A DNA stretch of 64,000 nucleotides. It comes from Ancylobacter aquaticus (GTDB lineage: Bacteria > Pseudomonadota > Alphaproteobacteria > Rhizobiales > Xanthobacteraceae). The position numbers and the translations under genes are program-made. The notes below the pieces were generated by a model. It was not told the origin of the DNA and made no database searches. It worked only from the letters and a program-made list of their open reading frames with translations. Below, piece by piece: positions 19,987-35,386 of the stretch. The stretch is from assembly GCF_004339465.1 (NCBI RefSeq), contig NZ_SMFY01000003.1:186001-250000 (forward strand), given 5' to 3'. Positions within the stretch are counted from its first letter, which is position 1; each line of letters starts with the position of its first letter.

Positions 19987-20544
19987 ATGGATACCCCGCG
20001 TTTCGCCCTTTTCTCGCGCCTGCTGCACTGGCTGATGGCGCTGATGATCCTCGCCATGCTGTTCATCGGCATCGGCATGGTTGCCTCGCTCGCCGACTAT
20101 CACTGGCTGCTGTCGATCCACCGCCCGCTCGGCATCGCTATCCTGGCGCTCGTCGCGGTGCGTCTGGTGAACCGCCAGCTGAACCCGCCCCCGCCGCTGC
20201 CGGCGGACATGCCGCCCGTGCTGCGGTTCGCGGCGCATGCCTCGCATGTCGCGCTCTACGCGCTGATGCTGGCCGTGCCGCTGGTCGGCTGGGCGATGCT
20301 CTCGGCCGGCCGCCTGCCGGTCGTGCTGTACGGCGGGTTGGAGCTTCCGCCGATCGTGCCGCAGGACGTCATGCTCTACGCCTGGCTGAGGGCGGCCCAC
20401 ACGGCGCTGGCGCTCGCGCTGTTCGCCACGTTCCTCCTCCACCTCGCTGCCGCGCTGATGCACGGGCTGGTGTTCCGCGATGGCGTGTTCGCCAGCATGG
20501 CCTCGCTGCGGGCCAGGCGCGGCACGCCCGGCCGACCGGGCTGA
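19987..20544 (+). CDS. Cytochrome b561 family membrane protein, partner of the catalase-like peroxidase
   Basis: A 185-residue four-helix di-heme cytochrome b561-type protein. Conserved heme-ligand histidines are seen in FSRLLHWLMALM, YHWLLSIHRPLGI, FAAHASHVALYALML and LFATFLLHLAAALMHGL. It directly follows the peroxidase gene with a GGGAGG site inside the junction. This arrangement recurs with SrpA-like catalases and suggests an electron-donating subunit. A second b561-type gene is at 29548. Confidence 0.9.
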   Translation: MDTPRFALFSRLLHWLMALMILAMLFIGIGMVASLADYHWLLSIHRPLGIAILALVAVRLVNRQLNPPPPLPADMPPVLRFAAHASHVALYALMLAVPLVGWAMLSAGRLPVVLYGGLELPPIVPQDVMLYAWLRAAHTALALALFATFLLHLAAALMHGLVFRDGVFASMASLRARRGTPGRPG

Positions 20545-22158: not shown

Positions 22159-23525
22159 GCGCTCTCTCCCAGCCGCACCGGTCCGCCGGCCGCAATCGAG
22201 TCGATGGCGGCGCGCAAGCCTTGCGCCACGCCCGCATCGCCGCCGCCAAAGGCCACATTGGCGTCGAACTTGGCCACGAGCTCGGCATCGGAAAGCGGCT
22301 CGCGCGCGCCGCCGCGCATGTGCGGCTGGCGGATTTCGCGCACCGAGCCGTCGGTCAGCGTCGCCCGGAGATGGCCGGTGAAGTTGCGGGGATATTCGTC
22401 GGCGGGGTCGATCTCGTAGGAAATCTTCGCCGCCAGCGCCTGCACGTCCGGGCGCCGTGTCTGCGCGTCGGCGAACTGCACCAGCCCGGCCGCTCCGTCG
22501 AGAAAGCCGACCGCCATGCAGAAGGGCGTGGAGAATTTTCCCGCATAGCCGTTCGGCACCGCCTGCTTGGCGGCGAGCGGTTCCCAGAGCCGGTGCACCG
22601 TGCCTTCGCCCGCCCGGCACACCAGGCTGACGATCTCCTCGGCGCGCACCCCTTGACCGGCGAGCGCGATGGCGCAGTCGATGAAGGGCTGGGTCATGGT
22701 TCCGCAGGCATAAGGCTTGAAGGCGATGGTCGGCATGATCCAGCTCTCCCCCAGCCCGTCCAGCAGCGGGGCGAAATTCGCCGCCTTGGAGGGAGCGAAG
22801 GCGCGGAAGAAGCCGTGGTCGCCCTCGAACACGCTGGCCGGCCCGATGAAGCCGGCCTCCGCCAGCAGCGCCGCCCGCAGCCCTGCCTGCGCCGCCGCGC
22901 CGGGGTGCAGCCGCTTGGTCCATGAGCCGTCGGCGAGATATTCGATGATGCCGGAGGCGAGGCTCCCCGCAATGCCCAGCGCATTGGCCAGCCGCGCGCG
23001 GTCGAGCCCGAGGGCCGCCCCCGTTGCCGCCGCCGCCGCCATGGCGCCGATCACGCCCGTGGGGTGGAAGCCGGCCTTATGGATCGCCTGCGGCGCCACG
23101 AGACTTAGCCGGCTCATCAGTTCGGCACCAACGGCAATGGCGCGCATCACTGCCGCGCCATCGAGCCCGCGATGCTGGGCGATGGCGAGCGCGGCCGGCA
23201 CCACCACCACCCCGGCATGCACCGGCCCGCCCTCGAAGGTGTCGTCATAGTCCTCGCCATGCGCCGCCGTGCCGTTGGCGAGCGCGGCGTCGTAGAGGTT
23301 CAGGCCCTGGGCGTGGCCGATGGCGGTGCAGGGACCCGTGCCGGCCGCGCTGGCCAGTGCGGCGCGCGTATAGGGCTCGTAGCGGGCGGCGAAGGCGAGG
23401 CCGCAAATGTCGAGCAGCAGGCGCCGGCTCACCGCCTCGGCGGCCGGCGGGGGGGCGGCGCTGGCCGCAAAGACTGCGAGCCGGCCGGCGACGGTTTCCT
23501 CGGAGATCGCGCTGTGCTGGTTCAC
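22155..23525 (-). CDS. MmgE/PrpD family protein (2-methylcitrate dehydratase-like)
   Basis: A 456-residue protein of the MmgE/PrpD superfamily, which contains 2-methylcitrate dehydratase, cis-aconitate decarboxylase and tartrate-type dehydratases. Typical segments are LDICGLAFAARYEPYTRAALA, NGTAAHGEDYDDTFEGGPVHAGVVVVPAALA (the family H-x-x-D-x-D-D patch) and HPTGVIGAMAAAAATGAALGL. The start is a GTG whose first three bases overlap the TGA of tctA (GTGA at 23522-23525), with AGGAAA upstream; this coupling strongly favours it over longer readings. Together with the tricarboxylate transporter it implies import and dehydration of a tricarboxylate or branched acid. Confidence 0.9.
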   Translation of the reverse strand: MNQHSAISEETVAGRLAVFAASAAPPPAAEAVSRRLLLDICGLAFAARYEPYTRAALASAAGTGPCTAIGHAQGLNLYDAALANGTAAHGEDYDDTFEGGPVHAGVVVVPAALAIAQHRGLDGAAVMRAIAVGAELMSRLSLVAPQAIHKAGFHPTGVIGAMAAAAATGAALGLDRARLANALGIAGSLASGIIEYLADGSWTKRLHPGAAAQAGLRAALLAEAGFIGPASVFEGDHGFFRAFAPSKAANFAPLLDGLGESWIMPTIAFKPYACGTMTQPFIDCAIALAGQGVRAEEIVSLVCRAGEGTVHRLWEPLAAKQAVPNGYAGKFSTPFCMAVGFLDGAAGLVQFADAQTRRPDVQALAAKISYEIDPADEYPRNFTGHLRATLTDGSVREIRQPHMRGGAREPLSDAELVAKFDANVAFGGGDAGVAQGLRAAIDSIAAGGPVRLGESA

Positions 23526-25027
23526 GAATGGGTTTCCTGCAGCTTGGTGCGGCGCGCCTCGCGGTATTCGCGCGCCAGCGAGAAGACGATGAAGAACAGG
23601 GCGGCGCCGAGCAGGCCGACGGCGATCGGGTCCTCGACGAAGATGTGGAAGTCGCCGCCCGACAGCACCAGCGAGCGGCGATAGCTCGATTCGACCATGT
23701 GGCCGAGCACGACGCCGAGGATCATCGGCAGCACCGGGAAGCGGGCGAGCCGCATCAAATAGCCCATGAGCCCAAGGGCAAGGGCGAGGCCGAGGTCGAA
23801 CGGGCTGTTGTTGAGCGTGTACAGGCCCGACAGGATGAGCGCGAGGATGAAGCCGGCGCGGTAGGGGCGCGGCCGGTTCACCAGCCACACGCAGGCCGGC
23901 AGAATGAGCACGCCCACCCCGATCTGGGCGATGATGGCGATGAGCGAGCCGACATACAGGCTGTCGATCACCTGCGGGTTCTGCTCGAACAGGCGCGGGC
24001 CCGGCAGCAGTCCGTGCATCAGCAGGCCGCCCAGCAGCACGGCGGTGGAGTTCGAGCTCGGAATGCCGAAGCTCAGCAGCGGGATCAGCGCGGTGGAGGC
24101 GACGGTGTTGTTGGCGGCCTCTGGCGCGGCGATGCCCTCCTCCGAGCCCTTGCCGAATTTTTCCGGCGTCTTCGACCAGCGACGGGCCTCGTTATAGGAC
24201 ATGAAGGCGGCGACCGAGCCGCCCCCGCCCGGGGTCAGCCCCTCGAACAGGCCGAGGAAGCAGCCGATGGCCTGCGAGCGCCGCAGCTTGCGCATCATCT
24301 CCCAGCCCGGCAGGCGGATGCGGATGGAGCCGCCGAGCTGGGTGACGGCGGTGGAGCCGGACTGGCTCATCAGCTCGGTCAGCGCGAACAGGCCGACCAT
24401 CACCACCACGGGCTCGACGCCGCTGAGCAGGTCCGCCACGTCGAAAGTGAAGCGGGTGACGCCGGAAATCGGGTCGGTGCCAACCGTGGCGATCATCAGC
24501 CCGACCACCGCCGAGGCGAGGCCCTTGAGCAGGGAATCGCCGCTCATCGAGGCGATGACGCTGAGGCCGAGTACGCCAAGAGCGAAATAGGAGGTGGGCC
24601 GGAACGCCAGCGCCAGCCAAGACAGCGGCTCGGTCAGCAGCGCGAGCATGGCGAGGCCGAACAGGCTGCCCACCACGCCCGACATCAGCGAGATGCCCAG
24701 CGCCTCGCCGGCCCGCCCCTGCCGGTTCAGCTCATAGCCGTCAATGACGGTGGCCGCCGAGGAGTTGGTGCCCGGGGTGCGGATCAGGATGGCCGGGATC
24801 GAGCCGCCATATTCGGCGCCGATATAGACGCAGGCGAGCAGCGCGATCGCCATCGCCGGGTCCATCGTGTAGGTGAACGGCAGCACCAGCGCCATGGTGA
24901 TCGAGGCCGAAATGCCCGGCAGCGCGCCGCCGAGAATGCCCCAGGTCAACCCGAGTATCGCGACCGGCACCAGCGGCGTGGCGGTGAGAAGATGCAGGAT
25001 GTCCCAGAAGGTTGTCACAGGAGCCAT
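23522..25027 (-). CDS. tctA: Tripartite tricarboxylate transporter, large permease subunit
   Basis: A 501-residue, roughly 12-helix membrane protein of the TctA family. Diagnostic segments are WGILGGALPGISASITMALVLPFTY near residue 30, the repeated G-x-x-P-G motif region SIPAILIRTPGTNSSAATVIDGY, and FGIPSSNSTAVLLGGLLMHGLLPGPRLF in the second half. It forms the solute channel of a TctCBA secondary importer. The start overlaps the tctB stop by 13 bases. It is downstream of the binding protein and small subunit, the usual C-B-A order. Confidence 0.95.
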   Translation of the reverse strand: MAPVTTFWDILHLLTATPLVPVAILGLTWGILGGALPGISASITMALVLPFTYTMDPAMAIALLACVYIGAEYGGSIPAILIRTPGTNSSAATVIDGYELNRQGRAGEALGISLMSGVVGSLFGLAMLALLTEPLSWLALAFRPTSYFALGVLGLSVIASMSGDSLLKGLASAVVGLMIATVGTDPISGVTRFTFDVADLLSGVEPVVVMVGLFALTELMSQSGSTAVTQLGGSIRIRLPGWEMMRKLRRSQAIGCFLGLFEGLTPGGGGSVAAFMSYNEARRWSKTPEKFGKGSEEGIAAPEAANNTVASTALIPLLSFGIPSSNSTAVLLGGLLMHGLLPGPRLFEQNPQVIDSLYVGSLIAIIAQIGVGVLILPACVWLVNRPRPYRAGFILALILSGLYTLNNSPFDLGLALALGLMGYLMRLARFPVLPMILGVVLGHMVESSYRRSLVLSGGDFHIFVEDPIAVGLLGAALFFIVFSLAREYREARRTKLQETHS

Positions 25028-25506
25028 CCCTGAAAAAGGGTGCCGGCGGGCTGGTGGACGCCCAGCAGCTTGACGAAAATCGCCCAGTACAGCGTCGCCC
25101 CGCCCAGCGCGGCGGCCGGCACCACCCAGCTGCGGGCGGCGCCCTCGTAAAGCGCCACGCCGGCGATCAGCAAAGCGACGGCGAGGAAATAGCCGATGAA
25201 GGGCAGCAGCACGACATAGGCGCCGCCGATCAGCAGCAAGCCGATGGCGCGGGGCAGCGGGGCGCCTTCCTCCTCTTCCGCCGGAGCCTCCGCCGGCACG
25301 CGCGCCCGGCGGGCCGAGAGGGCGACAAATGCCGTGCGGGCGATCAGCGCAACCCCGATGAGGGCGAGCAGCATGGCCAGCAGCCGGGGCAGGCCGGTGG
25401 CGCCGATCTCGTCCGACAGCGTGCTCTCGGCGATCGAGCCGCTGGCGGCGTAATAGGCGGCTGCGAGGGCGACGAGCACGCCGCCGCTCAGGAAGTCCTG
25501 TTTCAT
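25015..25506 (-). CDS. tctB: Tripartite tricarboxylate transporter, small membrane subunit
   Basis: A 163-residue protein with about four hydrophobic segments (residues 7-25, 37-62, 88-122, 127-150) and an acidic linker (EAPAEEEEGAP). It matches the poorly conserved TctB family in size, topology and position between tctC and tctA. The assignment rests mainly on context, which is unambiguous. Confidence 0.9.
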   Translation of the reverse strand: MKQDFLSGGVLVALAAAYYAASGSIAESTLSDEIGATGLPRLLAMLLALIGVALIARTAFVALSARRARVPAEAPAEEEEGAPLPRAIGLLLIGGAYVVLLPFIGYFLAVALLIAGVALYEGAARSWVVPAAALGGATLYWAIFVKLLGVHQPAGTLFQGWLL

Positions 25507-25575
25507 GGTGCGTTCCTCGGGGGCGGAGGGGCAGCGGGCGGCGCCGGAGTGTTCCCGGCGCCGCGGGCGGTCCGG

Positions 25576-26535
25576 CTATTTGACCGCGCCGGTCTCCTTC
25601 AGGAACGCTTCGGTGGTATCGGCGAAATTGGTGATGAAGGCCTGGTACTGGGCGTGCGGGATAAAGTTCGGCACCAGAACTTCTTCCGTGTAGCGGGCCT
25701 TGTAGTCGGGGTCGGCGAGCACGTTCTTGATCGCCACGTCCCAGACCTTGGTGACATCCTCCGGCAGCCCCTTGGGCCCGGCGAGGCCACGGAACTTCAC
25801 CAGCGTCACGTCGAAGCCGCTCTCCTTCACGGTCGGTACGTCAGGCTTTTCGGGAATGCGCTCGGGGTTGAAGGTGGCGAGCAGGCGGATCGTGCCGGCG
25901 GCGAGCTGCGAGCGCAGTTCCTGGATTTCGCCGATGCCGATGTCGAGCGTGCCGTTCATCACGTTGAGCATCATGTCGCCGCCGCCCTCATGGGTGACGA
26001 TGGCGGCATTGACGCCGGCGGCGCGCTTGAGCTGCTCGGCCGCCTGGCGCTCCAGCGAGGCCGGGTTGGCGGCGCCCCACCGGCCGCGGTCCTTCTTGGC
26101 CTTGTCGATCACGTCCTGCAGCGTTTTGTAGGGGCCGTCCGTGCGGGTGTAGATCACCTCGCTGTCGGCGAACAAATTCACCAGCGGCTCCAGGTCCTTG
26201 TAAGTCGCGGAGGGCTTGGAGAGCAGCGAGGTGTAGATGTAGGTCGGCGTGGTGGCGTAGAACACGCTGCCATCGGCCGGCGCGCCGGCAACGCGGGCCA
26301 CCGCTTTGGCGCCGCTGCCGCCCTGCACGTTCTCCACGATGAAGGTGGCGCCGATATACTTGCCGAGATATTTCGACAGTTCGCGCAGGAACACGTCGCT
26401 GCCGCCACCGGGGCTGGAATGGGTGACGAGGGTGACGACCTTGTGCGGGTAGGCGAGCGGTTCGGCGTTGAGGCTGAGCGTACCGAGCCCAACGGCGAGT
26501 GCGGCGGCCAGCAGGCCGGTCAGGGTCTTTCGCAT
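25576..26535 (-). CDS. tctC: Tripartite tricarboxylate transporter receptor (TctC/Bug family)
   Basis: A 319-residue periplasmic binding protein with a signal peptide (MRKTLTGLLAAALAVGLGTLSLNAEP). The mature part starts YPHKVVTLVTHSSPGGGSDVFLREL and contains ATFIVENVQGGSGAKAVARVAGAPADG, the conserved Bug-family ligand-carboxylate loops. A GGGAGGAAG site precedes the ATG. It delivers the substrate (tricarboxylate or another carboxylated compound) to TctAB. The GntR-type regulator gene lies 111 bases upstream on the same strand. Confidence 0.93.
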   Translation of the reverse strand: MRKTLTGLLAAALAVGLGTLSLNAEPLAYPHKVVTLVTHSSPGGGSDVFLRELSKYLGKYIGATFIVENVQGGSGAKAVARVAGAPADGSVFYATTPTYIYTSLLSKPSATYKDLEPLVNLFADSEVIYTRTDGPYKTLQDVIDKAKKDRGRWGAANPASLERQAAEQLKRAAGVNAAIVTHEGGGDMMLNVMNGTLDIGIGEIQELRSQLAAGTIRLLATFNPERIPEKPDVPTVKESGFDVTLVKFRGLAGPKGLPEDVTKVWDVAIKNVLADPDYKARYTEEVLVPNFIPHAQYQAFITNFADTTEAFLKETGAVK

Positions 26536-26646
26536 GGACTTCCTCCCAGGGTGCGGGGTCGCCTCTGCCGGGCGGTCTCCCGATGATGCTGTGACGGCTT
26601 AAAAGCGCGGCCTCCCCTTGGCGCGGGAGGGGCGCGTCGTCGTCGG

Positions 26647-27351
26647 TCAGGCGCGGCGCTCTTCGGGCCGGGCGGTGGACATGGAGCGAGCCAGAAGCCG
26701 CTCCTTGCCGCGCTCGACATGGTCGAAGCTCGTCTGATAGGCGGTGGCGGCGTCGCGGCGGGCGATCGCCTCGACGATGCGGGCATGCTCTTCGTTGGAA
26801 AGCTCCAGCGTGTTGCCGGTCATCAGATTGCCGGCACGATAGAGCCGCAATTGCTTCACCAGCCCTCGATATTGCGCGGTGAGCACGCCATTGCCGGCCT
26901 GCTCGACGATGAAGTCGTGGAAGGCGAAATTGAGCGGGTAGTAGCGGTCGAAATCATGGGCCCGCGCCGCCTCGGTCATCTCGTCGAGCATGGCGCGCAG
27001 CCGGTCGACCTCGCCGGCCTCGGTGCGGCTGGCGAGAAGCTGCGCGGCGTAGCCGAACAGCGCGGCCCGCACCCCGTACATCTCCACCACCTGCGAGATA
27101 TCGAGGCTGCGGATGAACACGCCGCGATTGGGCAGCAGTTCAACCAGGCCCAGCGCCTCCAGCGAGCGCAACGCCTCGCGCACCGGCCCCCGGCTGACGC
27201 CGAAAGTGGCGGCGAGCTGGTTCTCGTTGATGCGCCCGCCAATGCTGAGCCGGCCGTCGAGGATCATGCTCTCGATCTCGCGCTCCAGCAGCATGGGCAG
27301 CGAGGTGAGGCGCAGGAAGCTGACATCATGGGCGGCGGAGGAGGACGACAT
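26647..27351 (-). CDS. GntR-family transcriptional regulator, FadR/FCD subgroup
   Basis: A 234-residue regulator. The winged HTH spans about residues 15-80 (IESMILDGRLSIGGRINENQLAATFGVSRGPVREALRSLEALGLVELLPNRGVFI), with the canonical VSRGPVREALR recognition element. The C-terminal all-helical FCD ligand domain (about 85-220) contains the metal/effector residues in RAHDFDRYYPLNFAFHDFIVEQAGN and SNEEHARIVEAIARRD. It heads the tctCBA-MmgE-SDR block and is the likely local repressor, responding to the transported acid. The ribosome site is weak, so the exact start is uncertain. Confidence 0.92.
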   Translation of the reverse strand: MSSSSAAHDVSFLRLTSLPMLLEREIESMILDGRLSIGGRINENQLAATFGVSRGPVREALRSLEALGLVELLPNRGVFIRSLDISQVVEMYGVRAALFGYAAQLLASRTEAGEVDRLRAMLDEMTEAARAHDFDRYYPLNFAFHDFIVEQAGNGVLTAQYRGLVKQLRLYRAGNLMTGNTLELSNEEHARIVEAIARRDAATAYQTSFDHVERGKERLLARSMSTARPEERRA

Positions 27352-27532: not shown

Positions 27533-28702
27533 TCAGCCGCAGGAGGTCGGCGCGTGATGGTCCAGCGCGTCGAGGTCGAGGAAATGCCCGGCCCGGTCGC
27601 GCTTGGCGGCGAGGTAGCGGATATTGTCGGCCCCGCGCCGGCCATAGAGCCGTTCGACCCCTGTGACGTCGAGCCCCGCCCGGCGTAGGGCGCCGATCTT
27701 CTCGGGGTTGTTGGTCATCAGGATAACCCTGTCATAGCCGAGCTGGCGCAGCATGGCGGCGGCGAAGTCGAAGCGGCGGCCGTCGAGATCGAAGCCGAGC
27801 GTCTCGTCCGCCTCATAGGTGTCGAGCCCGTCGCTCTGCAGGCGATAGGCGCGCATCTTGTTGGCGATGCCGTTGCCCCGGCCTTCCTGGTCGAGATAGA
27901 GCAGCACCCCGCCGCCGGCCTGCGCCATGGAGGCAACCGTGGCGCGCAGCTGGTCGCCGCAGTCGCAGCGCAGCGAGCCGAACAGGTCGCCGGTCAGGCA
28001 GGCCGAATGCAGCCGCACCAGCACCGGGCGCGCCGGATCGGGCGCGCCGACAATCACCGCCACCTGTTCGCGCATGCCCTCGCCGCCGCGAAACACCACG
28101 AATTCGCAGTCGCGGGCGCTGATCAGCGGCACCGGCGCGCGCGAGACAATCTCCACGTGGGTTGCGCGGTCCTCGCCGAAGCCGGCGATCGCCTCGGCCC
28201 GCACGGTCAGCGCCGGCAGGGTCAGCGCCGCCGGGGCGAGCGGGCCCATCAGCACAGCCGGCAGCATCAAGGCGAGGGTAGCGAGCTGCAGCGCCGCCGC
28301 GCCAGCCGGGCCGGGCTCGACCAGCTCTTCGCGCAGCTCCGCCTTGGCCTGTCCATTCATATCCCGTGCGCTCAGCTCCTGGGCGATCAGCGCCTGAACC
28401 CGCTCCGAGCCGAGCGCCGAGGCCGGGATCGCCATTGGCTGGGTATATTCCGGCCGGCCAAGCGCGCGCAGGCGCGCGGGGGTCAGCACCAGCTGCAGTG
28501 CGCCGCCCGCCAGTTCGTTCAATGCCGACAGGCGTTCGGCATCGGCGAATTCGGCGCTGGCGACCAGGAACAGCCGGCCCGCCTGCGCGAGGATGACCGG
28601 GCGCCCGGCGCGCATCTCGGCGATGGCACGTTCCGCCTCGGTCAGGGAGGCGTCGCCGAAGAGGCTTGCAATCGTGCCGGCGGCCATCACGCTGTTGGTC
28701 AT
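27533..28702 (-). CDS. ribA: GTP cyclohydrolase II with degenerate N-terminal RibB-like domain
   Basis: A protein of about 389 residues. The C-terminal half is a complete RibA: VLVRLHSACLTGDLFGSLRCDCGDQL supplies the zinc cysteines (C-x-S-L-R-C-D-C), LLYLDQEGRGNGIANKMRAY the catalytic region, and DRVILMTNNPEKIGAL the GTP-binding end. RibA converts GTP to the 2,5-diamino pyrimidinone 5'-phosphate, formate and PPi. The N-terminal ~170 residues (AIAEMRAGRPVILAQAGRLFLVASAEFAD) look like a decayed DHBP-synthase domain lacking the acidic EDRENEGD motif. That domain is probably inactive. The ATG at 28702 has AGAGGA upstream; an in-frame GTG at 28717 is possible. It is divergent from a RibD-type reductase gene, not embedded in a rib operon. 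Confidence 0.9.
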   Translation of the reverse strand: MTNSVMAAGTIASLFGDASLTEAERAIAEMRAGRPVILAQAGRLFLVASAEFADAERLSALNELAGGALQLVLTPARLRALGRPEYTQPMAIPASALGSERVQALIAQELSARDMNGQAKAELREELVEPGPAGAAALQLATLALMLPAVLMGPLAPAALTLPALTVRAEAIAGFGEDRATHVEIVSRAPVPLISARDCEFVVFRGGEGMREQVAVIVGAPDPARPVLVRLHSACLTGDLFGSLRCDCGDQLRATVASMAQAGGGVLLYLDQEGRGNGIANKMRAYRLQSDGLDTYEADETLGFDLDGRRFDFAAAMLRQLGYDRVILMTNNPEKIGALRRAGLDVTGVERLYGRRGADNIRYLAAKRDRAGHFLDLDALDHHAPTSCG

Positions 28703-28803
28703 TTGAATCCTCTTCACTGCACCGTTTTGGCGTTTCGCACGTAGTAGCTACGGATGTAGGGCGCCAACGGACCAGCAACGCCGGGCGCTCGCGCATCGTT
28801 CAG

Positions 28804-28813
28804 TGTGTACACA
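28804..28813. promoter_or_regulatory. Perfect palindrome TGTGTACACA in the ribA/ribD-like divergent region
   Basis: A perfect 10-base palindrome between the divergent RibA-like and RibD-type reductase genes. It resembles dimeric-regulator half-sites (TGTnnACA). A second palindrome, GTAGCTAC, lies about 60 bases upstream, near 28743-28750. The TGTGTACACA element overlaps the outermost possible GTG start (28803) of the reductase gene, which argues that translation starts further downstream. Confidence 0.4.
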
Positions 28814-28835
28814 GGCAAGCAGCGGGGGGCTGTCG

Positions 28836-29561
28836 TTGAATCGTCGCGAGATACCCATCGATCCCTTGGCCGCGCTCTACGCGCCGATCGCGCGGCCGCG
28901 CACAACGCCTTTCATCGTCGCCCAGCTCGGCCAGTCGCTGGATGGACGGATCGCGACGCCGACAGGAAAATCGCGCGATATCAATGGGCTGTGCGGTCTC
29001 GACCATCTACACCGGCTGCGTTCTCTGGCCGATGTGGTGGTGGTCGGCGTCGGCACGGTGGTGGCCGACGACCCTCGGCTCACCACGCGCCGCGTCCCCG
29101 GCCGCAGCCCGGCGCGGGCAGTCATCGACCGCACCGGCCGCTCGCCGCGCGATGCCAAATGGCTTGAGGCGGATGGCTGTCACAGAATTGTGTTCACCCA
29201 CAACGGCGCAGGCTGGCCGGACGATGTCGACCGCATCGGCCCGGAGAGCGAGCCCGACATCTTCGAGCCGGCAAGGCTCATTGCCGCGCTGGCGGCGCGC
29301 GGCCACCGCACCATTCTCATCGAGGGCGGGGCGTCGACCATTTCCCGCTTCATCGATGCCGGGCTGGTCGATCGCCTGCATGTCTGCGTGGCGCCGATCA
29401 TTCTCGGCTCCGGCCGTCCGGGCCTCGCGCTGCGGCCGATAGACGGGCTGGAGGGCGCGCTGCGCCCGCATGTCGATACCTATCTGCTCGACGACGGCAA
29501 TATTCTTTGCGACTGTGACCTGCGACGAACCGGCGAGGGAGGGACGCATGTCGGCTTCTGA
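28836..29561 (+). CDS. Stand-alone RibD C-terminal-domain reductase
   Basis: A dihydrofolate-reductase-fold protein of about 241 residues matching the RibD_C (pyrimidine reductase) domain. Visible segments are PFIVAQLGQSLDGRIATPTGKSRDINGLCGLDHLHRLRSLADVVVVGVGTVVADDPRLTTR (NADPH and substrate), ARAVIDRTGR, HRTILIEGGASTISRFIDAGLVDRLHVCVAPIILGSG. The N-terminal deaminase domain of bifunctional RibD is absent. Monofunctional reductases act before deamination in the fungal/archaeal riboflavin order, or in other pyrimidine/pterin routes. The start is uncertain: TTG 28836 has GGGGGG upstream, while GTG 28803 sits inside a palindrome. The downstream cytochrome gene overlaps the stop by 14 bases, so they are co-transcribed. 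Confidence 0.85.
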   Translation: MNRREIPIDPLAALYAPIARPRTTPFIVAQLGQSLDGRIATPTGKSRDINGLCGLDHLHRLRSLADVVVVGVGTVVADDPRLTTRRVPGRSPARAVIDRTGRSPRDAKWLEADGCHRIVFTHNGAGWPDDVDRIGPESEPDIFEPARLIAALAARGHRTILIEGGASTISRFIDAGLVDRLHVCVAPIILGSGRPGLALRPIDGLEGALRPHVDTYLLDDGNILCDCDLRRTGEGGTHVGF

Positions 29562-30117
29562 TCGGGACGTGCCGTCCACGCCGGTCCGGTATGGCCCCAC
29601 CGCCCGCGCCCTGCACTGGGTGGTCGCGCTGATCGTGCTCGTCCTCATCCCCCTCGGCCTCTACATGGTGGCGCGCGGCGAGGCGACAGGGTTCGACGCG
29701 CTGACCGGCTCGCTCTACAGCCTGCACAAGTTCATCGGCTTCCTCGCGCTGTGGCTCATCGTGCTGCGGGTGCTGGTCCGCCTGCGGCGAGGCGCGCCGC
29801 CGCCGGAGGCGTCGCTCACCCCGTTGGAGCGCGTGGCCTCGGCCACCGTGCACGCCGCGCTTTATCTGCTGCTGCTCGCCGTGCCGGTGCTGGGCTGGGC
29901 CGGGGTGTCGGCCTATCCGGCGCTGAACGTGTTCGGGCTGTTCGATCTTCCGGCCCTGCTCTCGCCGGATGAAGGGCTCGCCAAGCGGATTCTCGGCCTG
30001 CACGGGTTGCTGGCGCAGATCCTCGGCGTGCTGGCGCTGGCGCATATCGCGGCGGCGCTCTACCACCGCTTCCTCAAGCGCGACGGGGTGATGGCGCGGA
30101 TGTGGCCGCCGTTCTGA
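29548..30117 (+). CDS. Cytochrome b561 family membrane protein
   Basis: A 189-residue four-helix b-type cytochrome. Candidate heme ligands are the His residues in TARALHWVVALIVLV, YSLHKFIGFLALWLIVLRVL, ASATVHAALYLLLLAVPVLGWAG and GLLAQILGVLALAHIAAALYHRF. The ATG at 29548 has GGAGGGA upstream and lies inside the end of the reductase gene. Coupling of a quinol-linked cytochrome to a RibD-type reductase is unusual. It may supply or drain electrons for whatever redox product the neighbouring pterin-like genes make (inference). Confidence 0.88.
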   Translation: MSASDRDVPSTPVRYGPTARALHWVVALIVLVLIPLGLYMVARGEATGFDALTGSLYSLHKFIGFLALWLIVLRVLVRLRRGAPPPEASLTPLERVASATVHAALYLLLLAVPVLGWAGVSAYPALNVFGLFDLPALLSPDEGLAKRILGLHGLLAQILGVLALAHIAAALYHRFLKRDGVMARMWPPF

Positions 30118-30137
30118 GGCGGCGCCACCGGCGCGCG

Positions 30138-30974
30138 TCAGGCATGGCCGAACACGTCGCGATGGCCGATCGTCACCTTCTCCGCCGCCGCCCGTGCGCG
30201 CGCCCACGCGGCGAACTCGGCCTTTCGTGCCGGCTCGATTTCGCCGGCCGCCTGGGCGAAGCCATTCGTCAGCGCGCCGATGAGCGCGGCATGGGCGGGG
30301 CCGAGCACCCATGGGCTGGTGAAGGACCCGTACGTGTAGCCGTGCTGGCGCAGCAACTGCGCGAGGGCCTCGCTTGAGGCCGGCCCGAGCGCCGGCCCAA
30401 ATCCCTTGTCGCCGCGCTGGTGGCGGTTGAAGGCGGCGATCACCCTTCCGTCCAGCGGCTCGGCGGGCTGCCACTCGGCCTCGCCGTCATAGTTCAGCAC
30501 GGCATAGATCGGCAGCTTCCGGGCGACCAGCCGGGCGACGAGACGCTCCAGCCAGTCCTCGGAGACGAGGTCGAACAGCGCGGCCGCCGTCACCAGCTCC
30601 GCCCCGACATCGGTGAAATCGAGGTCGCGGACGGTGAGATCCGCGCGCTCAAAGCTCACCTCGATCACCCGCCCGTCGCGGTGCAGCACAAGGCGCTCGC
30701 CGGCCGGCTCGGCACGTTCCGCCCACGCGGCGAGGTCTTCGCGCGCCCGCTTCAGCAGTGCCGCGTCCCCATCGATCAGGTGCCAATGCTGGCGGGGCGG
30801 CAGGTCGCCGGCGAGGCCGCGCAGATTGGAGCCGGTGCCGCAGCCGAGATCGACGATGGTCAGCGCGTCGCGGCCGGCGAAATGCGCCCGCATCCGGGCC
30901 GCCAGCGTCGGGTTGCGGGAAGCGTGGTCCACTGGCTCGCGCAGGGCCAGCCAGTCGGCAGCAAAACCGCTCAT
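30138..30974 (-). CDS. Class I SAM-dependent methyltransferase
   Basis: A 278-residue Rossmann-fold methyltransferase. Motif I is LTIVDLGCGTGSNLRGLAG near residues 40-58, an acidic post-I residue lies in WHLIDGDAALLKRA, and motif IV/V lie around LVTAAALFDLVSEDWLERLV. The rest includes EWQPAEPLDGRVIAAFNRHQRGDKGFGPALG, which I do not recognise from a characterised family. Start and stop are coupled to the glycosyltransferase (ATGA at 30971-30974), and GGAGAT precedes the ATG. It is the last gene of the dehydrogenase-PTPS-glycosyltransferase-methyltransferase operon and probably methylates that pathway's product. Confidence 0.82.
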   Translation of the reverse strand: MSGFAADWLALREPVDHASRNPTLAARMRAHFAGRDALTIVDLGCGTGSNLRGLAGDLPPRQHWHLIDGDAALLKRAREDLAAWAERAEPAGERLVLHRDGRVIEVSFERADLTVRDLDFTDVGAELVTAAALFDLVSEDWLERLVARLVARKLPIYAVLNYDGEAEWQPAEPLDGRVIAAFNRHQRGDKGFGPALGPASSEALAQLLRQHGYTYGSFTSPWVLGPAHAALIGALTNGFAQAAGEIEPARKAEFAAWARARAAAEKVTIGHRDVFGHA

Positions 30975-32017
30975 CGGGGCATCTCCTTCAGGGCGGCCAG
31001 AAGCACCGCCGCGGTCTGCATCCATGTCGGCAGGGATTGACCATGGTGCCACGCCGCCTGCGCCAGAACGGCGCGGCGGTCGGGTTCATCGAAAAGCAGG
31101 CGGAGCGCCTCGGCGAGGCTCGCCACATCGCCGGGCTCCGCCAGCAGCGAGGCTTCCGCCGGCACGGTGTCGGGGATGGCGCCGGCGCGGGTGGCGACGA
31201 TCGGCAGTCCATGCGCGAGTGCTTCGGTCAGCCCCATCCCATAGCCCTCGAACAGCGAGGCGGTGACGAAAAGGTCGGCGGCGTCGAATTCGCCGGCCAG
31301 CCGCTCGGGCGAGAGCGCGCCGGTAAGGCGGACGCGCGCGCCCAGCCCATGCGTCGCGATGCGCGCCGCGACCCGGGCGGTCTCGTCGGGGTCGCGATCG
31401 GTGGCGCCGACAATGTGGCAGGTCCAGTCGTGCGCGTTCAAGCCCGCGAGCGCCTCGACCAGCACGCCATGGGCCTTGCGCGGGATCACCGCGCCCACCG
31501 CCAGCAGCCGCAGCGGCCGGCCGGTGCCGGAAGCGCGGAGGCCGGGGTCGGTGCCGGGCACGGCGACGCTCAGCCGTTCGGCGGGCACGCCATATTCCCG
31601 CGCGAGGCATCGGGCGGTGGAAGGGCTGGTGGCGATCACCGCCGACACTTGCGCCAGCGCCGCCCTTTCGCTGGCGAAAAGCTCCGCCCGCTGGCCCTCG
31701 TTCAGCCCGCTCTCCAGCGCCAGCGGGTGATGCACCAGCGCCGCCAGCGGCCGCTCCACCCCCCGCAGCAGCGGCGCCGGCAGCGCGCCGAGCGCGAGGC
31801 CGTCGATCAGCACGGGCTGGCCGGGCGGCAGCGCGCGCAGGATCTCCGCGCTGCGCTCCAGCTCCGTCGGGGAGGGGAAGGGGAAGCCGCCCGGCAGGGC
31901 GACATGGGTCAACGCACCGCCGGCGCGGGGTGCCTCTGCCATCACCCGGCGGTCATAGGCATAGCCGCCCGTGGGAAGGGAGATATCGCCGGGAATGGCG
32001 AAGGCGAAGGCGCTCAC
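30971..32017 (-). CDS. GT4-family glycosyltransferase
   Basis: A 348-residue GT-B-fold glycosyltransferase. The N-terminal part starts GDISLPTGGYAYDRR with a glycine-rich acceptor loop. The C-terminal half contains LLAVGAVIPRKAHGVLVEAL, a variant of the usual GR-x-x-x-x-K motif, and the E-x7-E region ASLFEGYGMGLTEALAHGLPIVATRAGAIPDTVP. The start is GTG with GAGGA upstream, 10 bases after the PTPS-like gene. In this operon it may glycosylate the pterin- or flavin-like product, by analogy to pterin glucosyltransferases of cyanobacteria, but sugar and acceptor are not readable. Confidence 0.87.
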   Translation of the reverse strand: MSAFAFAIPGDISLPTGGYAYDRRVMAEAPRAGGALTHVALPGGFPFPSPTELERSAEILRALPPGQPVLIDGLALGALPAPLLRGVERPLAALVHHPLALESGLNEGQRAELFASERAALAQVSAVIATSPSTARCLAREYGVPAERLSVAVPGTDPGLRASGTGRPLRLLAVGAVIPRKAHGVLVEALAGLNAHDWTCHIVGATDRDPDETARVAARIATHGLGARVRLTGALSPERLAGEFDAADLFVTASLFEGYGMGLTEALAHGLPIVATRAGAIPDTVPAEASLLAEPGDVASLAEALRLLFDEPDRRAVLAQAAWHHGQSLPTWMQTAAVLLAALKEMPR

Positions 32018-32027
32018 GCGGCCATCC

Positions 32028-32441
32028 TCAGCCGAGACCGGCTTCGTAGCTGGCGCGGGCGAGGTCGGTCTCGTGCAGGGTGACGCGGATCTTCGCCAGC
32101 CCCCGCCCTTCCTCGCCCAGCGCCCCGGCGCCGGCAGCGGTGGCCATCGCGTCGAAAATATGCCGGGCGAGAAATTCCGTGGTGGTGAGCTTTCCGGCGA
32201 ATTCCGGCAGCGTGTCGAGGTTCTGGTAGGCGAGGGGCGCCAGCGTCTTCTTCAGCACGTCGAGCGCGGCGCCGATGTCGACCACCACGTTCTGCGCCGT
32301 CAGCGCCGCGCGGAAGAACGCGACATCGACCACGAAGGTGGCGCCGTGCAGGCCCTGCGCCGGGCCGAAGAACGGGTCGGGCAGCGAATGGGCGATCATG
32401 ATGCGATCGCGGACTTCGACACAGTACATGGCATCCCTCAT
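32028..32441 (-). CDS. 6-pyruvoyltetrahydropterin synthase / QueD-like protein
   Basis: A 137-residue PTPS/QueD (T-fold) family protein. Recognisable are RIMIAHSLPDPFFGPAQGLHGATFVVDV, where the His residues before and in LHGATF correspond to the zinc-binding H...H-x-H set, VVVDIGAALDVLKKTLAPLAYQNLDTLPEF (the D-x-x-x-L and LD-x-x pattern with the catalytic-acid region), and the late ETDLARASYE. The classical C-x3-H-x-H at the active site is altered: no Cys is seen at the catalytic position, so it may not be a true PTPS or CPH4 synthase. The ATG overlaps the stop of the dehydrogenase (ATGA), fixing the start. No other queuosine genes are present. Confidence 0.85.
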   Translation of the reverse strand: MRDAMYCVEVRDRIMIAHSLPDPFFGPAQGLHGATFVVDVAFFRAALTAQNVVVDIGAALDVLKKTLAPLAYQNLDTLPEFAGKLTTTEFLARHIFDAMATAAGAGALGEEGRGLAKIRVTLHETDLARASYEAGLG

Positions 32442-33421
32442 CGGTAATCGAGCAGGATCGCCAGCGCGTCCTCCCCTTCGGTCAGCAGTGCCGGCAGCCT
32501 CGCCGGCGCCTCGCCGAACGGCACGATATGCGTGACCAGACGGTCGAGCCGTACATCGTCCAGCAAAGCGAGGGCCTTGGCGAGCCGGCGCGCATGCGGC
32601 CAGCGTGGCCGACGCGATGCGGATACGGAACCCACCTGCGAGCCGATCAGTTGCAGCCGCCGGCTGTGAAAACTCTCCCCCAGCGGCACGGAGGGCGCTC
32701 GCCCGCCATACCAACTCACCTCGACCACTTTCGCCTCGAACGCCGCCGCCGCCAGCGCCGTGGCCAGCCCGGCGGCGCTGGCGCTGGTGTGGAACACGAT
32801 GTCGGCATCATCGGTGATCTCGGCCGGCAGCGCAAAGGCGGCGCCGAAGCTGCGCGCCAGTTCCGCCCGCTTCGGGTTTACGTCGACCAGCGTCACCTCG
32901 GCACCGGGAAGCCGGGCGGCGAGCGCGGTCAGCAAGAGGCCGATCACTCCGCCTCCCACGATGGTGATGCGGTCTCCCGGCCCGGCGCCGGAATCCCACA
33001 GCGCGTTGAGCGCGGTTTCCATGTTCGCCGCCAGCGTGGCGCGCTCGGGGGGCAGCGCGTCCGGCACCGGCATCGCCGCCGCCACCGGCAGGCGATAGAG
33101 ATCCTGATGCGGATGCAGCGCGAAGACCGTGCGGCCGAGCCATTCCGCCGGCCCGGCCTCGACCACGCCGACGCTCTGATAGCCATACTGGACGGGAAAC
33201 GGAAAATCGCCGTTCTGGAACGGCGCGCGCATGCGCTGGTGCTCGCTGTGCGGCACCGCGCCTTCCAGCACGAGGCGTTCCGTGCCCCGGCTAACCGCCG
33301 AGGCGAGGGCGCGCACGGTCAGCATGTCGTCGCCGCTCCGGTCGAGCGGGGCACGGCGCAGTTCGTAGCCTCCCGGCGTCACGCACCAGAGCTGCGTACA
33401 TGTGTCCGATGCTTCAATCAT
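32438..33421 (-). CDS. Medium-chain (zinc-type) dehydrogenase/reductase
   Basis: A 327-residue MDR-family oxidoreductase, first gene of the four-gene operon. The N-terminal half contains ALASAVSRGTERLVLEGAVP and FPVQYGYQSVGVVEAG; the cofactor motif is RITIVGGGVIGLLLTALAARLPGAEVTLVDVNPKRAELARSFGA near residues 160-205. The structural zinc lobe is missing and catalytic zinc ligands are not obvious. It resembles the BchC-like/alcohol dehydrogenase-like subset often labelled zinc-binding. The ATG at 33421 is preceded by a weak G-rich stretch; an in-frame ATG at 33445 is an alternative. Its stop overlaps the PTPS-like start. Confidence 0.83.
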   Translation of the reverse strand: MIEASDTCTQLWCVTPGGYELRRAPLDRSGDDMLTVRALASAVSRGTERLVLEGAVPHSEHQRMRAPFQNGDFPFPVQYGYQSVGVVEAGPAEWLGRTVFALHPHQDLYRLPVAAAMPVPDALPPERATLAANMETALNALWDSGAGPGDRITIVGGGVIGLLLTALAARLPGAEVTLVDVNPKRAELARSFGAAFALPAEITDDADIVFHTSASAAGLATALAAAAFEAKVVEVSWYGGRAPSVPLGESFHSRRLQLIGSQVGSVSASRRPRWPHARRLAKALALLDDVRLDRLVTHIVPFGEAPARLPALLTEGEDALAILLDYR

Positions 33422-33571
33422 TGTGGATGCTACCCCCTGCCACATTCGCGTGCATAACAGCATCACGGTCGGGTTAGATCCCCAAAACCGCGTGAACCGC
33501 CGGCGTTGCGCTGCGTACAAGCTCAGCGAGGTGCCGCAGGGGTAGTTCGCTTGCGTCGAGCCGAGGACTGC

Positions 33572-35386
33572 ATGAGTCTGGATGAGAAGGTCGCCGAAGG
33601 GCGTTTCATTTCCGCCGAACAGGCGGAGCCCCGGACGCCGACCGGCGTGCAGTCGCTGCGGCAGCTGGCGGGACGGCGGGCTCTGGTGTTCACGCTCATC
33701 GGCGTGACCTATGCCGGGCTCGTCGCCTTGTTCGCCCATCTGCTCGGCCATGGCGGGTTCACCGTGCTGGACGGCTTCCTGCTGCTGGCGTTCTGCCTCT
33801 CCACGCCCTGGACCATTCTGGGCTTCTGGAACGCGGCGATCGGCCTGTGGCTGCTGCACGGCCCGGGCGATGCGTCGCGCTCGGTCTATCCCTATGCCGG
33901 CCGTGCGGCCGACGACGCGCCGATCACCGCGCGCGTCGCCATGGTGATGACGCTGCGCAACGAGGACCCGGCCCGCGCCTTCGCCCGCCTGCGCGCCATG
34001 CAGAATGAACTCGCGTCCACAGGCAATGGGGCGAACTTTGCCTGGTTCGTGCTGTCCGACACCACCCAGCCCGACATCGCCGTTGCCGAGGAGGCGCTTT
34101 TCGCTGCGTGGCAGGCCGAGCTTGGCGAGGGGGCGGCGCTGCACTACCGCCGCCGCAGCAGCAATGAAGGTTTCAAGGCCGGCAATATCCGCGACTTTCT
34201 CGACCGCTGGGGCGATGAGCACGATTTGATGCTGGCGCTCGATGCCGACAGCTTCCTCGGCGCCTCCGCTACGCTGCGCCTCATCCGCATCATGCAGGCC
34301 AATCCGCGCCTCGGCATCCTGCAGAGCCTCGTGGTCGGCCTGCCCTCGCGCTCGCCTTTCGCGCGCATCTTCCAGTTCGGCATGCGCCACGGCATGCGCT
34401 CCTACACGATGGGCGCGTCCTGGTGGGCGGGCGATTGCGGGCCCTATTGGGGGCACAACGCGGTCATCCGCATCGCCCCGTTCAAGGCGCATTGCCACCT
34501 TCCCGTCCTGCCGGGCACCGGGCCGCTCGCCGGGCACATCCTCTCGCACGACCAGATCGAGGCGGTGCTGATGCGCCGCGCCGGCTATGAGGTGCGGGTG
34601 CTGCCGGAGGAGATGGACAGTTTCGAGGAGAACCCGCCCCACCTCACCGAATTCACCCGCCGCGACCTGCGCTGGTGCCAGGGCAACATGCAGTATTGGC
34701 GGCTCATCGCCTTGCCGGGCCTCAAGCCGATGAGCCGGTTCCAGATCGCCTGGGCGATGCTGATGTATGTCGGCGCTCTCGCCTGGATGGCCTTCATCGC
34801 CCTCGCCGCGCTGAAGGTGTTCGACGCCGAGCAGGCCGATGGCCCGTTTCCCGCCGCGCTCGGGCTGGGCCTGTTCGCCACCATGTTCGCGATGAGCCTC
34901 GCCCCGAAGGCCGCCGGCTTTCTGGACGTGCTGCTGCGGGCGGGGGAGCGGAAGCGCTATGGCGGCACGGGGCGGCTGGTGGGCGGGGCGCTGTCGGAAT
35001 TCGTCTTCTCGGTGCTGCTGGGCCCGGTTGTCGCCTTCCGCATCGCGCTGTTCATGGTCGGGCTGGTCTTCGGCCGCACCGTGACCTGGGAGGCGCAGTC
35101 GCGCGACGCCCAGCGCCTGTCCTGGCGCACCGCCATGGCCGGGCTGTGGCCGCAATTCCTGTTTGGCGGGGTGCTGGGCGCGCTGCTCCTCGGGTTCGCG
35201 CCCGGTGCGCTGCCCTGGGCGCTGCCGGTGCTGGTCGGCCTCATGGGCGCCGTGCCCTTCGCGGTGCTGACCGCCGAGCCGGCGCTCGGGCGCTGGCTGG
35301 CCCGGCGGGGCCTGTGCGCGACGCCGGAGGAGGTCTCTCCCACCGGCAGCCTTCTCGCGCTGGAAGCCGCGCACCGCGCCGCCTGA
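33572..35386 (+). CDS. opgH: Membrane glucan glucosyltransferase, OpgH/MdoH-like (GT2)
   Basis: A 604-residue processive GT2 enzyme. Two N-terminal helices (about 35-58 and 65-92) precede the cytoplasmic catalytic domain. It carries VAMVMTLRNEDPARAFARL, the D-x-D in LMLALDADSFLGASATLRLI, a WAGDCGPYWGHNAVIRI segment, the TED-like base region LSHDQIEAVLMRRAGYEV and the Q/RxxRW-type RRDLRWCQGNMQYWRLI. Several C-terminal helices follow. This is the OpgH layout for osmoregulated periplasmic beta-glucan backbones; the length fits alphaproteobacterial forms. No opgG is adjacent, so an alternative beta-glucan product is possible. It is divergent from the MDR dehydrogenase operon. Confidence 0.88.
   Translation: MSLDEKVAEGRFISAEQAEPRTPTGVQSLRQLAGRRALVFTLIGVTYAGLVALFAHLLGHGGFTVLDGFLLLAFCLSTPWTILGFWNAAIGLWLLHGPGDASRSVYPYAGRAADDAPITARVAMVMTLRNEDPARAFARLRAMQNELASTGNGANFAWFVLSDTTQPDIAVAEEALFAAWQAELGEGAALHYRRRSSNEGFKAGNIRDFLDRWGDEHDLMLALDADSFLGASATLRLIRIMQANPRLGILQSLVVGLPSRSPFARIFQFGMRHGMRSYTMGASWWAGDCGPYWGHNAVIRIAPFKAHCHLPVLPGTGPLAGHILSHDQIEAVLMRRAGYEVRVLPEEMDSFEENPPHLTEFTRRDLRWCQGNMQYWRLIALPGLKPMSRFQIAWAMLMYVGALAWMAFIALAALKVFDAEQADGPFPAALGLGLFATMFAMSLAPKAAGFLDVLLRAGERKRYGGTGRLVGGALSEFVFSVLLGPVVAFRIALFMVGLVFGRTVTWEAQSRDAQRLSWRTAMAGLWPQFLFGGVLGALLLGFAPGALPWALPVLVGLMGAVPFAVLTAEPALGRWLARRGLCATPEEVSPTGSLLALEAAHRAA

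Follow-up and report, generated by a model that had tools for sequence, protein, structure and literature searches.

A gene block for a probable GTP-derived pathway

In a 64,000-nt stretch (the window, whose positions serve as coordinates below) of the 4.83-Mb genome of Ancylobacter aquaticus, a gene block at 27533-33421 was found that encodes RibA, a stand-alone RibD reductase, a cytochrome b561 and a four-gene operon for a dehydrogenase (DH), a PTPS-like protein, a GT4 glycosyltransferase (GT4) and a methyltransferase (MT), with a divergent MdoH gene extending to 35386. We consider it probable that this block constitutes a dedicated pathway leading from GTP to a methylated, glycosylated metabolite of the pyrimidine or pterin type. 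While the enzyme families are already known, the block as a pathway is undescribed in the literature searched, no description of it being found in the open-licence papers covered. An initial annotation of the window had recognized the first seven genes and overlooked MdoH. Its interpretation, a glycosylated and methylated pterin- or pyrimidine-derived pigment or cofactor, is partly supported and was over-specific on the pigment or cofactor. The gene block itself is real: RibA, RibD_C, b561 (prokaryotic), MT, GT4, PTPS and DH each scored above at least one curated Pfam cut-off in the Pfam and NCBIfam searches. The features are as follows.

27533..28702, minus strand: RibA, GTP cyclohydrolase II (GCHII) with a RibB-fold N-terminal domain lacking the DDDDRENEGD loop (PF00925, 169.6 bits)
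28803..29561, plus strand: stand-alone RibD_C-type reductase without a deaminase domain (PF01872, 134.5 bits against a cut-off of 24.1)
29548..30117, plus strand: cytochrome b561, overlapping the end of ribD (PF01292, 103.5 bits)
30138..30974, minus strand: class I S-adenosylmethionine (SAM)-dependent MT, last gene of the operon (PF13649, 33.6 bits against a cut-off of 27)
30971..32017, minus strand: GT4, MshA/PimB-like (PF13692, 92.7 bits)
32028..32441, minus strand: PTPS-like member of the SCO6650 family, with a T-fold that lacks the PTPS catalytic triad, HGA for HGH
32438..33421, minus strand: medium-chain dehydrogenase/reductase (MDR)-type DH in which the usual zinc ligands are missing, first gene of the operon (PF00107, 44.5 bits)
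33422..33574, no strand: intergenic stretch between the divergent DH and MdoH starts, which, judging from the gene coordinates, presumably holds both promoters
33575..35386, plus strand: orphan MdoH-type membrane glucosyltransferase, divergent from DH (NF003963, 948.7 bits against a cut-off of 884)

The operon is compact, with ATGA overlaps at the DH/PTPS and GT4/MT junctions and a gap of 10 bases between PTPS and GT4, and the ratio of nonsynonymous to synonymous substitution rates across the eight genes of the block lies between 0.11 and 0.50 (up to four comparisons).

Conservation and spread of the block

Conservation was assessed in 134 loci, comprising 20 + 20 genome stretches, the best 80 of at least 551 relatives, 13 stretches from 20 plasmid matches and the window. 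One of them, L150, entered the set through a 24.7-bit match and has no PTPS-like copy, so that 133 copy-bearing loci remain. Gene calls in the loci were made by script and include false frames in GC-rich DNA; the counts come from tblastn with the cluster proteins. The order DH-PTPS-GT4-MT is kept in 95 of the 110 loci with room for it, DH lying directly upstream of PTPS in 112/123 and GT4-MT directly downstream in 108/118. Within 7 kb of the PTPS-like gene, RibD was found in 62 of 101 loci and RibA in 45, both in 34 and either in 73. At a limit of 7.5 kb, the RibA matches consist of 40 strong cluster-type ones and five weaker ones, several of the latter being stand-alone GCHII genes of another type in Hyphomicrobium loci.

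The same association was seen in a sample of 61 genomes (the host and 60 relatives), 34 of which carry the PTPS-like gene. Cluster-type RibD (at least 85 bits, the next matches reaching at most 67) is present in 31 of the 34 positive genomes, the match in G001 being a partial one of 67 residues, and in none of the 27 negative ones. Cluster-type RibA (at least 240 bits, the next matches reaching at most 154) is present in 17 of the 34, the host counted, and again in none of the 27, three of which hold a GCHII of another type (128-154 bits). Fisher tests that ignore kinship gave 2.6e-14 for RibD and 5.2e-6 for RibA. Protein distances of RibD correlate with those of the operon genes (Spearman 0.67-0.81) about as the operon genes do among themselves (0.66-0.84), all values being uncorrected for the species tree.

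These data indicate that the two halves of the block belong together, as the initial annotation had supposed. A chance juxtaposition of two unrelated modules, to which the position of RibA and RibD across b561 from the operon and the absence of RibA within 7 kb in 56/101 loci might point, is largely refuted and in our estimate very improbable: the arrangement recurs in alphaproteobacteria, gammaproteobacteria and actinobacteria, RibD follows the PTPS-like gene through the genome sample, and RibD directly adjoins DH on the same strand in L151-L153, L155 and L157-L159.

Among evenly drawn genomes of the class, 45/385 contain the PTPS-like gene at 141 bits or more and all other matches stay below 25 bits, which marks the family as a discrete one. 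In a phylum sample, 10/100 genomes reached at least 183 bits, four of them outside the class, and the other 12 matches at most 44 bits. PTPS-like matches were also found in 20 plasmid records; no match was found in phage records at 1e-5. Among annotated plasmids, the core DH-PTPS-GT4-MT occurs with varying partners in Streptomyces fungicidicus, Microbacterium, Thiodictyon, Agrobacterium, Rhizobium, Neorhizobium and Methylosinus, and together with RibD and RibA in Streptomyces globisporus, Agrobacterium and Rhizobium plasmids. The S. fungicidicus block contains no RibD, and the Microbacterium and Thiodictyon stretches no RibA. Two Rhodobacterales plasmids hold parts of the core only, and there a PfkB-type sugar kinase gene stands beside the block (L180:11006-11893, L182:6834-7754). 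L147-L149, from two alphaproteobacterial lineages with genomes of 1.4-1.6 Mb, contain creatininase, DH, PTPS, GT4, MT, RibD and RibA, and no MdoH or b561 match was found in these stretches. Taking this list without the creatininase, we estimate the core as DH, PTPS, GT4, MT, RibD and RibA. A gene carried by about one in nine of the class genomes sampled, small genomes included, points to a common, unrecognised GTP-derived metabolite for which the gene set is now defined.

The PTPS-like protein lacks the catalytic residues of QueD and PTPS

The PTPS-like protein matches Streptomyces SCO6650 (PDB 3d7j, released in 2008) in sequence and fold over its whole length and has the T-fold. HGA replaces HGH in 133/133 copies (132 by pattern, L175 by reading its sequence), and HGH is present in none. 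The equivalent of the histidine in the LDH motif, readable in 114 of the 133 copies, is Tyr in 111, Phe in two and Leu in one. The catalytic Cys expected 4-6 residues before HGH is absent, Ala-Gln standing in its place, and no Cys is conserved in 14 aligned copies. Invariant residues of the protein include His18, His32, Tyr72 and Glu124. The TIGR03367 score is 27.2 against a cut-off of 89.25. The signature motifs that a study on COG0720 gives for PTPS-I, II and III, CxxxHGH, CxxxxxHGH and ExxHGH (PMC5041015), are likewise missing from the protein. With other residues standing at the catalytic Cys, at the second His of HGH and, in the readable copies, at the LDH His, the protein is not an ordinary QueD or PTPS, and in this respect the initial annotation, which had called it PTPS/QueD-like, has to be corrected. 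An ordinary function in queuosine, tetrahydrobiopterin or folate synthesis is therefore hardly credible, even though relatives are annotated in databases as 6-carboxytetrahydropterin synthase, a queuosine enzyme, which the residues contradict, and even though this is the only PTPS-family gene found in the host genome.

To our knowledge, SCO6650 was described singly, as a PTPS homolog. Different from this lone description, the family member here belongs to a multi-gene block that is conserved, in hosts with MdoH and b561. DH, GT4, MT and GCHII are grouped with the SCO6650-type gene in the S. fungicidicus and S. globisporus plasmids as well. Across two phyla, the block ties SCO6650 to GCHII and to a riboflavin-type reductase. 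A second context for the family was observed in two other Streptomyces plasmids (L174 and L175, 9001-9426), in which no DH, GT4, MT or RibA is annotated near the SCO6650-type gene and MEKHLA-domain, cupin and MBL-fold genes lie near it in both.

RibA and RibD as predicted entry enzymes

The zinc motif CxTGDx6CxC of the window RibA is intact: CLTGDLFGSLRCDC. The protein falls below the cut-offs of the NCBIfam models TIGR00505 (168.9 against 205.85 bits) and, for full length, NF006456 (418.4 against 464), and passes the subfamily model NF001591 (207 against 148 bits). The residue at the position that switches the product is Tyr (NKMRAY), E. coli Tyr105 falling in NKIRAY by alignment numbering. 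Tyr was found at this position in 50 of 53 RibA copies, a count that takes in other-type GCHII genes and one RibBA; Met occurs in both Streptomyces plasmid copies, and the RibBA was unreadable. With Tyr at the switch position, the window RibA is predicted to deformylate by itself and hence to turn GTP into the deformylated pyrimidine.

Its N-terminal domain, which the initial annotation had rightly described as decayed, retains the RibB fold and, in a weak alignment, lacks the DDDDRENEGD loop of the genome's own RibB, arguing against an active RibB domain. The idea that this domain is a decaying pseudogene was rejected. At L058:6367-6507 (same genome as L065), a remnant of the N-terminal domain with 47 matching residues is all that was observed of RibA. 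The rest of this block is complete, and ribA appears to have been lost from it recently.

As had been proposed, the RibD reductase of the block has no deaminase: only RibD_C matched, and the motif HAE...PCxxxC, present in the housekeeping RibD, is absent. Among solved structures it comes closest to a diaminopyrimidine reductase (6p8c) and a putative uracil reductase (2azn). Homology supports the earlier suggestion that RibA and a stand-alone reductase would together yield a reduced diaminopyrimidine.

Relation to riboflavin synthesis

The separate riboflavin set that the initial annotation asked for was found elsewhere in the genome, as a ribD-ribE-ribH operon with a deaminase-containing RibD (C2:313 kb) and ribB (C1:608 kb), indicating that the block is not the housekeeping riboflavin set. 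A ribB, ribE, ribH or RibD deaminase gene lies near the block in 1/134 loci, namely L161, with ribE-ribB-ribH about 7 kb from PTPS, and the housekeeping possibility was accordingly discarded. The genome's RibB protein (G000:C1:608287; L222:5269-6573) carries a GCHII domain without any cysteine, and among the riboflavin-type GCHII proteins found in the genome only the window RibA has its zinc cysteines intact, a nuance to the view that the riboflavin set is complete elsewhere. The two RibBA proteins of this genome therefore show complementary decay, the one having a cysteine-free GCHII domain and the other a dead-looking RibB domain. A third GCHII-like gene, of the GTP_CH_N type, lies beside DUF1688 (G000:C1:724519; L224:3983-7447). 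This paralog is probably a UTP cyclohydrolase as in 7eev, and with DUF1688, its partner in uracil breakdown, it probably serves that route.

The window RibA could also feed riboflavin in this genome. A study on Sinorhizobium reports a BrbF route whose GTP-opening enzyme had not yet been identified there, and proposes that riboflavin for internal use and riboflavin for secretion come from separate branches (PMC9478397). The complementary decay described above bears on this missing GTP-opening enzyme (BrbG) of the Rhizobiales riboflavin pathway. One might extend this to a flavin supply function for the whole block, in which RibA and the additional reductase raise the supply of diaminopyrimidine for riboflavin, perhaps for a secreted pool, and the operon modifies or exports a flavin. 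The intact zinc cysteines of the window RibA, the proposed secretion branch and the ribE-ribB-ribH group in L161 are in line with it, but we regard it as rather improbable, because riboflavin genes accompany the block in that single locus, cluster-type RibA is missing in 27/27 negative and 17/34 positive genomes and no function in flavin synthesis is known for a PTPS-like protein. As cluster-type RibA is missing from half of the positives and all negatives, riboflavin in this group evidently does not depend on it.

The Streptomyces counterpart and creatininase-family genes

In S. fungicidicus the PTPS copy is almost identical to SCO6650 (266.7 bits), and the block runs CDP-alcohol phosphotransferase, DH, PTPS, GT4, MT, LPG-synthase-like gene, creatininase and RibA. 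PTPS and RibA are five genes apart there, as the numbers SCO6650 and SCO6655 would predict. Work by Spoonamore and colleagues in 2006 reportedly identified SCO6655 of S. coelicolor as a GCHII that yields the formylated pyrimidine, with Met replacing Tyr; the S. fungicidicus RibA shares this Met, whereas the window RibA has Tyr. 

The Sinorhizobium study reports that BrbF, a creatininase-family protein, deformylates the formylated GCHII product in Sinorhizobium and Brucella (PMC9478397), in light of which a creatininase beside a Met-type RibA makes sense. A creatininase match was found in 7/134 loci. The gene lies beside RibA, DH or RibD in the two Streptomyces blocks, L147-L149 and L165, and the creatininase of L044, about 8 kb off and with 31% identity, may be unrelated to the block. 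Unlike these blocks with their candidate counterpart of the BrbF/ArfB formamidases, the window block has none, and three such genes lie elsewhere in the host genome. A rule by which Met-type RibA comes with creatininase and Tyr-type RibA without was tried and failed on L147-L149, which combine creatininase with a Tyr-type RibA, showing that the two do not pair strictly.

Operon enzymes and membrane partners

The best solved relative of GT4 is a D-inositol 3-phosphate glycosyltransferase (7qsg, E 3e-18), and its top solved relatives include enzymes whose acceptor is a polyol phosphate or a phosphatidyl-polyol (7qsg, 3oka), suggesting that a ribityl phosphate would be a suitable acceptor. For MT, no relative was found among solved structures at E 0.01. 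DH does not match a zinc-dependent MDR alcohol dehydrogenase: it has Cys at 8 and 13 only and no GHE motif, and its conserved stretches are an SRGTE-like one and YGY in place of the zinc ligands.

MdoH was found within 7 kb in 71/101 loci and a CDP-alcohol phosphotransferase in 11, never both, a split confounded by taxonomy; 19 loci have neither. MdoH stands divergent next to DH in 80 of the 108 loci with DH and room, and on the same strand in one, in Neorhizobium, where mdoH directly precedes DH. An mdoG-mdoH pair is present elsewhere in the genome (C1:1.178 Mb), which makes the window MdoH an orphan paralog, and no MdoG match was found by Pfam in the genes flanking it. LPG-synthase-like genes occur in 5/134 loci and sulfatase-like genes in 6/134. 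In two loci the CDP-alcohol phosphotransferase gene (identified by Pfam for L165 and by a tblastn match for L166) was observed paired with a YceI-family gene beside the block (L165:5885-7263, L166:12970-14324).

These membrane partners could also mean that the operon serves to make or modify a glucan or lipid of the cell surface, with MdoH or the CDP-alcohol phosphotransferase as the enzyme that builds it, the PTPS-like protein having a role unrelated to pterins. The frequency of the two enzymes near the block, the Neorhizobium arrangement and the LPG-synthase-like and sulfatase-like genes speak for such glycan or glycolipid decoration. We nevertheless hold it to be unlikely, given the 19 loci with neither enzyme, L147-L149 with their retained RibA and RibD among them, and given that RibA and RibD have no known role in glycan synthesis.

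Cytochrome b561 lies within 7 kb of PTPS in 62/101 loci, as often as RibD, and its distance correlations (0.31-0.65) are mostly below those of the other block genes. We therefore treat it as a probable but replaceable partner. A second b561-like frame was seen by eye at 19987-20544.

Proposed pathway

Based on the above, we hypothesize the following order of reactions, of which the first two rest on homology and intact signature residues. RibA would open GTP to 2,5-diamino-6-ribosylamino-4(3H)-pyrimidinone 5'-phosphate, and the stand-alone RibD reductase would convert this, without deamination, to the ribitylamino form, the order known from archaea and fungi. The SCO6650-type protein, presumably keeping a pterin-type pocket without PTPS chemistry, may bind the diaminopyrimidine or a derived pterin and, with the zinc-free DH, may perform or template a new step, for instance the closure of a ring or the isomerisation of the side chain. 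GT4 would then glycosylate the ribityl phosphate side chain and MT cap the product. To judge from the neighbouring genes, completion or hand-over of the product may take place at the membrane; MdoH would be responsible in this lineage and elsewhere perhaps the CDP-alcohol phosphotransferase, in some cases with the LPG-synthase-like membrane protein.

Several observations weigh against such a dedicated pathway. We know of no activity, metabolite or mutant. RibA is not within 7 kb in those 56/101 loci and its cluster type is missing from 17/34 positive genomes, implying either that another enzyme supplies the precursor there or that the pathway can do without RibA. In 39/101 loci no RibD lies within 7 kb, G032, G055 and G060 are PTPS-positive yet without cluster-type RibD, and the Neorhizobium stretch L184 has neither RibA nor RibD. 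GT4 is not beside PTPS in L180, where one lies about 4 kb away, or in L182, in which none is annotated in the stretch. SCO6650-type genes stand without block partners in the two Streptomyces plasmids described above, and creatininase and RibA type follow no simple pairing, as L147-L149 show. Finally, the loci were picked by similarity and some genomes appear twice (e.g. L057/L061, L058/L065), so the counts are not independent.

A likeness exists to the cyanobacterial pterin glycosides biopterin glucoside and cyanopterin, for which a glycosyltransferase also acts beside pterin enzymes; the tetrahydrobiopterin glucosyltransferase 9v0l is a very weak match to GT4 (E 0.00099). According to a recent review, GTP cyclohydrolase I is the starting enzyme for most biological pterins, and the crossing of membranes by pterins is unexplained, no pterin efflux system having been identified (PMC13259868). 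The entry enzyme of the block, by contrast, is a GCHII. A pathway with membrane enzymes alongside bears on the question of membrane crossing. In a bolder version, which we regard as quite doubtful, the block would make a new class of redox-active glycoside of a ribityl-pyrimidine or 8-ribityl-pterin that is membrane-anchored or exported. Attachment or flipping would be the task of MdoH or else of the CDP-alcohol phosphotransferase, alone or together with the LPG-synthase-like protein, and the compound would exchange electrons with the quinol pool via b561, acting as a pterin-type cofactor of the membrane or periplasm. Such a GCHII route would be distinct from those of folate, molybdopterin, biopterin, deazaflavin and flavin, and SCO6650 would be a T-fold enzyme of new chemistry.

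Beside ribA, at 23522-27351, frames resembling a tripartite tricarboxylate-type transporter and a GntR-type regulator were noted by eye.

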